A stretch of DNA of 64,000 nucleotides, taken from NCBI GenBank assembly GCA_029891345.1, contig CM056993.1, forward strand, positions 278,830,016 through 278,894,015. The letters run 5' to 3'. Source of the stretch: Dryococelus australis (taxonomy: Eukaryota; Arthropoda; Insecta; Phasmatodea; Phasmatidae). Below the pieces are notes generated by a model. The model had not been told where the DNA came from, did no database searches, and saw only the letters and a list, made by a program, of their open reading frames with translations. Position numbers and translations under genes: made by a program. Of this stretch, positions 26,901-29,900 are shown in pieces; positions within the stretch are counted from its first letter, which is position 1; the number at the start of each line of letters is the position of its first letter.

Positions 26901-29900
26901 AGCAGGTGAGAGGGATCAGCAACCCAGGGTCAGACCCAGATGACCTTGAGGTCAGGGCAAGTGCATCGTTCAGGACCTTTGACCTTGACATTTGACCCCC
27001 CAAAAAAATAAAAACTCACAAAAATACAAAAAGATAGTTATTAAAAATTATTAAAAATTTCTAAAATCATATTAAAATTGTTTTAAAAAATATACAAAAA
27101 ATATTTTAAAATCTTAAAAATATCCAGAGGTTCCCCCCACTCTTATTACCAAACAAATTAGTTGGCTAGCCTACACCTCCTTACCCTTACCCAGTCAGCC
27201 ATCTTGGTAGGTGACCACCATCTTGCTAGGCAGCCGCCATCTTGGTAGGCGATCAACATCTTCGTAGGTAGCCACCATTTGGTAGGCGACCACCATCTTG
27301 GTAAGCGACCGACTACTTTGTAGGCGATCACCATCTTGATAGACATCACCTGCCCACCATCTTTAAAACCAGCGCTCATTATCAATTGAACATTGACCTT
27401 TGACACTTAACACCTGACCCATGACTTCGGCATTGTCCCATAACTTTGAATGACATTGAAAATAAACACTCGAGAAAAATACATAGAAGTCAACAAGCAT
27501 ATAACATTACAGACTTCTACCAACATATTAGATGCAGATTACCCCGACCTTGATCCCATGACCTTGAAAATAAGAAGTTGAGAAAAGATACATAAAATTC
27601 AACAAGTATAATACATTACAGACTACCACTGCCATATTAGATGCAGATGCTGACTACCTCGATCTTGACCCCATGAACTTGAATGCCCTTGAAAACAACA
27701 GCTCGAGAAAAAATACATAAACATCAGCAAACATATTATGTTACAAACCACTACACTATATTAGATTCAGGTGACCTTGGCATTGTATGTTTATGTGACT
27801 AAACCAGATCCATCATACTAATTGCGACCACATGCACGAGTAAGTTATACTCATGGTATGGATAAGAATTCATATAGGTTTAATTGGCATCAATTTAAAT
27901 TTGAATTCTGCCAGACTCTGGAGACTTGGAATGTACGAGGGCAGCTAAGACAATAAACATCCGTGCTCTTCTCATCAGACACCAATCCATCCATCATTCC
28001 TCACAAATCCTCACCAATCCACCCATTTCATCAACCAATTCTCGCCAATCCATCCACCAATCCTCACCAATTCAGCCATCAATCCCCACCAATCCATTCA
28101 CCAATCCTCACAAATCCACCCAATCATTCACTAATTCACCCAATCATTCACCAATCCACCCTATCATTCCCCAATCCACCCTATCATTCACCAATTCGCC
28201 CACAAATTCTCACCAATCCTCACAAACCCACCCAATAATTCCCCAATCCATACCAATCATTCACAAATTCACCCACCAATCATCACCAATCCTCGTCAAC
28301 CGACACAATCATTCTACAAACCACCTAATCATTCACCAATCCACCCAGTCATGCTCCAATCCACCCACCAATCCACTTAATCATTCAACCAATACACCGA
28401 CCAATCCACCCAATAATTCACAATCTTTACACCAATCCATGGGTTTGTCATCTGCCCTAGCTATACACATAACAAAAAAAAAGATTCACCAAATATCTCC
28501 GAAGTGTGTACATGTAGACGGAATTAAATGTATTGTATGCAGTCAACTTTCCGTACATTTTTTTTACTAAAGTCCTTATTATCATTCTATTTACATATCT
28601 TAGCGTTTATAGGTGAGTGCTCATAGGACCACTTTAGAGTTGTGAGGGATAAAAGTATACAACACACAAAAATAACGTAAAAAGTGACTGTACTGCTCTC
28701 ATTCTGTCTTTAACATTAACTGTCTCGTCATAATCGTCTGCTAAAACAGTACCCATCGATGTAGCAGGAGGTATTGATGATATCACTTGCTGGCTCCCAG
28801 TAGATGAACACTTGCAGATCTGACTATCTTCCTTCATTGTATCATCTTGCAAAAGCTCCATGTGACCATTGTCGTAATGCTTCATCGCGCGAAAAGGTCT
28901 CTTTGTACAGTCTGTTCTCTCATGTCGTCGAGAATTTTGACCACAGGTGAACACTCGATCGCAGAATCTACATTGGAAACAACCAGTTAGCGATGATGCA
29001 AGTCGTGGCTCCATGTTAGTTGATTTCAAAGGCAGACCTTCGTTTTCGCAATTCCTCTTTGTGGTATATATATATATATATATATATATATATATATATA
29101 TATATATATATATATATATATATATATATATATATATATATATATACCACAAAGAGGAATTGCGAAAACGAAGGTCTGCCTTTGAAATCAACTAACATGG
29201 AGCCACGACTTGCATCATCGCTAACTGGTTGTTTCCAATGTAGATTCTGCGATCGAGTGTTCACCTGTGGTCAAAATTCTCGACGACATGAGAGAACAGA
29301 CTGTACAAAGAGACCTTTTCTCTCTCTCTCTCTCTCTATATATATATATATATATATATATATATATATATATATATATATATATATATATATATATATA
29401 TAGAGAGAGAGAGAGAGAGAGCTTCCAAATCAATTTTTACCTCACGGAGTCAGAACATCAACTGTCATTTTTTCTATATAAATGCGGATATTTTAGCATA
29501 AAGTGTCTAGTTTGTGCCCACAAAAGAATTTCCTCCCCTAAAATATATATGAAGAAAATAGGAGCACTTTGAGAAAACCCAAATACTAGTTCGACCCGAA
29601 GAAAACATTAAGAATATATAAAATTAATTGAAATTTGTGTATATATATAATTAATTGAAATTTATTTTATATGTAAATATGTATAGGGATGATGACAGAG
29701 GCCAATTTCTTAAGACTATATTCAAGCAAAATTTTAAGTCTCCTGACTAAAAAAAAGAGGAATTATTGAAGGGGGTTCAGATAAGTCATATATCAGGATG
29801 GAATGATGCCGGCAGGGTGAATCTGATTGTGGAATATTACCCAGACATCAGGAACAAGTTGATTCAAGATGGTCATATATTTGTAGGCTACGACAGCTGC

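Follow-up and report, generated by a model that had tools for sequence, protein, structure and literature searches.

Fold-back of broken DNA ends (PMC3907307), hairpin-capped ends (PMC7999016) and template switching (PMC8794818) have each been documented, and palindromes are known fragile sites that are not rare as such, with 718 long near-perfect examples of more than 200 bp reported for the human genome (PMC7999016). Here we describe an exact 430-bp palindrome centred on a TA microsatellite in the stick insect Dryococelus australis, within a stretch of 64,000 nucleotides that was analysed as a whole (the window). The D. australis genome is described as assembled from PacBio continuous long reads with WTDBG2, and its authors note that short-read polishing might help (PMC10268593). 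In the fold-back duplications described after double-strand breaks in PMC3907307, as at this locus, an inverted copy lies beside its source and the turn is self-complementary. Those duplications are large and human, and all 21 junctions sequenced there carry an unduplicated spacer of at least 766 bp, whereas the duplicated piece here is 174 bp long and there is no spacer beyond the TA hairpin. Because 0 nt separate the two arms, we do not place the locus in the human fold-back class and argue for the broader mechanism only. Template-switch hairpins, as presented in PMC8794818, are similar in that one replication event yields a perfect inverted copy together with a new hairpin; they are shorter (the largest given is 59 bp) and were deduced from phylogeny, whereas our case is read from one sequence.

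Other palindromic loci share part of this anatomy. PATRR11 and PATRR22, according to PMC4940405, are nearly perfect, span several hundred bp and have no spacer, as does the 430-bp palindrome described here. Their composition sets them apart (more than 90% AT, against 64% AT here), which excludes a PATRR by that measure, and no translocation is known for our locus. Young hairpin-RNA loci of Drosophila simulans, such as hp58, are described as inverted fragments of nearby genes, in which an exon piece lies inverted near its progenitor and existing transcription units can be used (PMC10317233); the present palindrome has a comparable layout and, in contrast to these loci, is known from its DNA sequence alone. 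Finally, the coding palindromes of Nematomorpha mitochondria, reported with up to 142 bp per arm, are likewise perfect inverted repeats (PMC6649704), but they are mitochondrial, numerous and located in known genes, whereas ours is single and intronic, and the coding capacity of its frame is in doubt.

Two adjoining TA-centred palindromes

An inverted-repeat search of the window returned an exact 430-bp palindrome at 28891-29320 (palindrome 1), whose two 215-nt arms (28891-29105 and 29106-29320) are 100% complementary. Each arm contains 174 bp of ordinary sequence with 44% GC, at 28891-29064 on the left and, as an exact inverted copy, at 29147-29320 on the right, and the centre is an 82-bp (TA)41 tract at 29065-29146. 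The initial annotation had reported a perfect palindrome of this length with exact 174-bp arms, and in this it was right. It had also described the TA run as something that the arms surround; the run is itself palindromic, so palindrome 1 has no true spacer. Chance can be ruled out as its origin, because 15 order-1 Markov resamplings of the window gave a longest half-arm of only 7–11 nt. Among the matches listed, exact reverse-complement pairs of at least 20 nt that passed the simple-sequence filter comprised palindrome 1 and, at 17612-17633, a pair of overlapping AT-rich stretches of 20 nt. None of the 14-mers of the arms was found elsewhere in the window, and the outer flanks of the two arms are unlike each other. 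A further claim, that all other repeats in the region are diverged, is true of the longer inverted repeats (masked self-BLAST gave 11 other pairs of at least 90 bp, 66–81% identical) and fails for the microsatellites, several of which are pure.

The earlier description overlooked a second exact palindrome immediately to the right. Palindrome 2, (TC)9(TA)33(GA)9 at 29319-29420, has 51-nt arms and shares 2 bp (TC) with palindrome 1, whose right arm ends at 29320 and is followed by the TC repeat; this overlap at the exit junction could be due to chance. Seven pure TA tracts of at least nine units occur in the window. The flanks of the two within the palindromes (82 and 66 bp) are themselves perfectly palindromic for 174 and 18 nt, respectively, compared with 0–4 nt for the remaining five. 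When 28891-29420 is folded as single-stranded DNA, two adjacent hairpins are predicted, owing to the presence of palindrome 2 beside palindrome 1.

Genomic setting

Three matches to the SLC26-type sulfate transporter profile PF00916 lie on the minus strand, at 42731-43102 (profile positions 1–47), 38955-39218 (27–105) and 23355-23750 (96–182); the small overlap of their profile ranges is what frames reading past splice sites would give. Palindrome 1 would thus be housed in an SLC26-type gene, within an intron of some 15 kb (23697-38978, minus strand) that is bounded by the two flanking matches and has approximate limits, because these were taken from the ends of the matches. Between 28000 and 30000, no Rfam family matched at the gathering score, and a known structured RNA was rejected on that basis. 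Degraded retroelements are present nearby: 30442-30789 matches an endonuclease, 45872-46288 and 58179-58727 match RT, and 44426-44713 and 55624-56166 give weaker integrase and gag matches that do not reach the cut-off.

The window also contains a variety of other repeats. Two copies of an interspersed element (15042-15768 and 38157-38956) are 81% identical over 731 bp and are MITE-like by structure, each having inverted arms of about 160–215 bp (79–81% identical) and, at one end, a TA tract. An old, diverged palindrome at 34894-35272 (66% identity, E 7.6e-15) is followed directly by a CA/TA array (35278-35361), and no target-site duplication of 6–8 nt was found near its ends. Dispersed repeat copies at 12528-12697, 19575-19698 and 22911-23110, 74–86% identical, encode a GFSHVGIVPDDA-like peptide, which we take to resemble repeats of stick-insect genomes. 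Units resembling CACCAATCCA form a diverged tandem array (27974-28438) that starts about 450 bp to the left of palindrome 1, and a diverged minisatellite with periods of 55 and 110 bp occupies 49470-50201.

A zinc-finger-like peptide and the probable direction of copying

Both arms encode the same CX2CX12HX4C peptide, on the minus strand of the left arm (28907-28972) and on the plus strand of the right arm (29239-29304). The initial annotation had assigned a C2HC finger to each arm: the identity of the two peptides stands, and the motif spacing, in which F or Y follows the second C, fits such a finger, whereas the Pfam matches to zf-C2H2_4 stay below the cut-off (E 0.39 and 0.17; 12 and 13.1 bits against 27). 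Given also a best PDB match of E 0.022 for the frame and codon-position GC values of 0.45, 0.43 and 0.37, which form a weak pattern only, a solid zinc-finger gene is not upheld, and a search of phage records for relatives of the frame gave no match at E 0.01. Within the window the strict motif has two occurrences, one in each arm, and therefore counts as independent only once. One of 60 resamples contained it (mean 0.017), an expectation that is probably too low because the window is richer in long open frames than the resamples: it has 11 of at least 141 codons, several of them retroelements or repeats, whereas the resamples average 0.95 and never exceed 3. The arm peptide is nevertheless a plausible candidate for a coding piece.

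The stop-free frame that carries the peptide on the minus strand extends over 28634-29191, with 141 codons of ordinary sequence (29059 to 28637) and a remainder made up of the TA tract and part of the right arm, and it could possibly represent a zinc-finger-like exon or pseudogene. This frame reads through the outer boundary of the left arm and meets no stop for another 84 codons, a distance that is open at 2.2% of window positions when both strands are counted, and such a continuation is seen at the left edge only. Because the open frame runs past this edge, we take the left arm as the probable source, from which the right arm was copied, although the argument from the frame is moderate and does not amount to proof.

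A fold-back model and its alternatives

We consider that palindrome 1, with somewhat better than even probability, arose in the germline as a fold-back inverted duplication for which the TA microsatellite was the seed. Consistent with the fold-back and template-switch class, the inverted copy lies directly beside its source, the direction of copying being read from the frame, and the turn consists of self-complementary sequence, (TA)41, the likely fold-back point. A break or stalled fork inside the TA tract would have left a 3′ end on the left side that snapped back on its self-complementary TA, primed synthesis and copied 174 bp of itself, generating palindrome 1. In a two-ended form of this model, the right end would also have folded back, through (GA)9, to give (TC)9(TA)33(GA)9, and the copied ends would have been joined at their common TC, perhaps by microhomology. 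The ancestral allele would then have read left arm-(TA)n-(GA)9-right flank; adding half of 41 to half of 33 puts n at about 37. In a simpler, one-ended form, a single end would have folded back and rejoined a pre-existing TC-TA-GA repeat. The position of palindrome 2 beside palindrome 1 suggests that both ends of one break folded back, and the sequence fits the one-ended form too. A single event in a TA tract is the simplest explanation for two adjoining TA-centred palindromes with 2 bp in common; against this, compound TC-TA-GA repeats can arise by slippage, and palindrome 2 may lie outside the event. We infer the break, the priming, the joining and the ancestral allele alike. The mutation proposed here is of an already known type, of which this locus would be a tidy example. 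Among the papers searched, no title combined palindromes, fold-back and dinucleotide repeats, which does not imply that the combination is unpublished.

The initial annotation had offered very recent origin, gene conversion and artefact as explanations. The anatomy observed directly (two exact palindromes with a 2-bp overlap, no target-site duplication, a frame across the left edge, a second TA palindrome to the right and unlike flanks) takes this further: the frame, the second palindrome and the flanks favour a fold-back origin. An artefact of sequencing or assembly, in which fold-back reads, amplification chimeras or misassembly of TA-rich sequence placed the right arm in the consensus, is an unlikely explanation that still deserves some weight. 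Fold-back reads are put at about 0.55–0.6% of Nanopore genomic reads (PMC12870357), palindromic chimeras are reported as products of whole-genome amplification (PMC6218980), and the exactly identical arms adjoin TA tracts of 82 and 66 bp, which would be hard to assemble. PacBio HiFi data, by contrast, are reported to contain virtually no fold-backs, on the basis of only three PacBio samples in all (PMC12870357) and of a technology that may differ from that behind the window. The structure itself is also awkward for this reading: a plain library fold-back is expected to keep mirroring the left flank and not to reach a new unique flank, but the right copy halts at 174 bp before different sequence, so that a single fold-back read would be insufficient and a second junction would be needed.

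Identity of the arms could also reflect an older palindrome homogenized by gene conversion or repeated template switching. The maintenance of palindromes is discussed for other genomes in PMC6649704, and young and converted palindromes are indistinguishable by identity alone. Conversion is not general in the window, however, because no other inverted pair of at least 90 bp exceeds 81% identity, and the arm boundary falls within an open frame, making this history improbable. Taking gene conversion as absent, 0 differences in 174 bp set a 95% upper limit on age of 0.86, 1.7, 2.9 or 4.3 million generations at assumed rates of 1e-8, 5e-9, 3e-9 or 2e-9 per site, respectively. A very recent origin is thus not forced by arm identity, and the earlier wording was too strong on that evidence. 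The weakest of the alternatives, to which we give hardly any credence, is the insertion of a young palindromic, MITE-like transposable element at 28891-29320. The window does hold the two MITE-like elements and the diverged palindrome described above, but palindrome 1 has no target-site duplication of 2–12 nt around it and no other copy of its arms in the window, and the open frame spans its left edge; a palindromic MITE is therefore disfavoured.

Hairpin potential and significance

Should it be an artefact, the locus would call for caution with assemblies of genomes rich in TA. If real, as the fold-back model holds, it preserves a clean and legible record of fold-back synthesis at a TA microsatellite, and from its two-part structure a specific ancestral form, left arm-(TA)n-(GA)n-right flank, is predicted. 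We make no claim of a selected function for palindrome 1.

Fold-back and template-switch events have been proposed as a source of new RNA hairpins (PMC8794818). As RNA, palindrome 1 is predicted to fold into one unbroken hairpin at −388.9 kcal/mol, compared with a mean of −91.6 kcal/mol for shuffled sequences, none of which (0 of 100) folded as low; in this predicted structure it shares with hairpin-RNA loci, a class also defined by Dicer-2-dependent siRNAs of 21–22 nt, a long inverted repeat that folds as a single stem. By analogy with the Drosophila loci, its position in the putative intron fits the use of an existing transcription unit. It is conceivable, if very improbable, that this is a newborn hairpin-RNA locus, in which a break in the TA tract, with both ends folded back, would have turned a zinc-finger-like coding piece into a perfect 174-bp source of double-stranded RNA within a transcribed intron, now giving siRNAs against the parent sequence. 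Were this so, the birth of an endogenous RNAi locus would have been caught at its mutational step.
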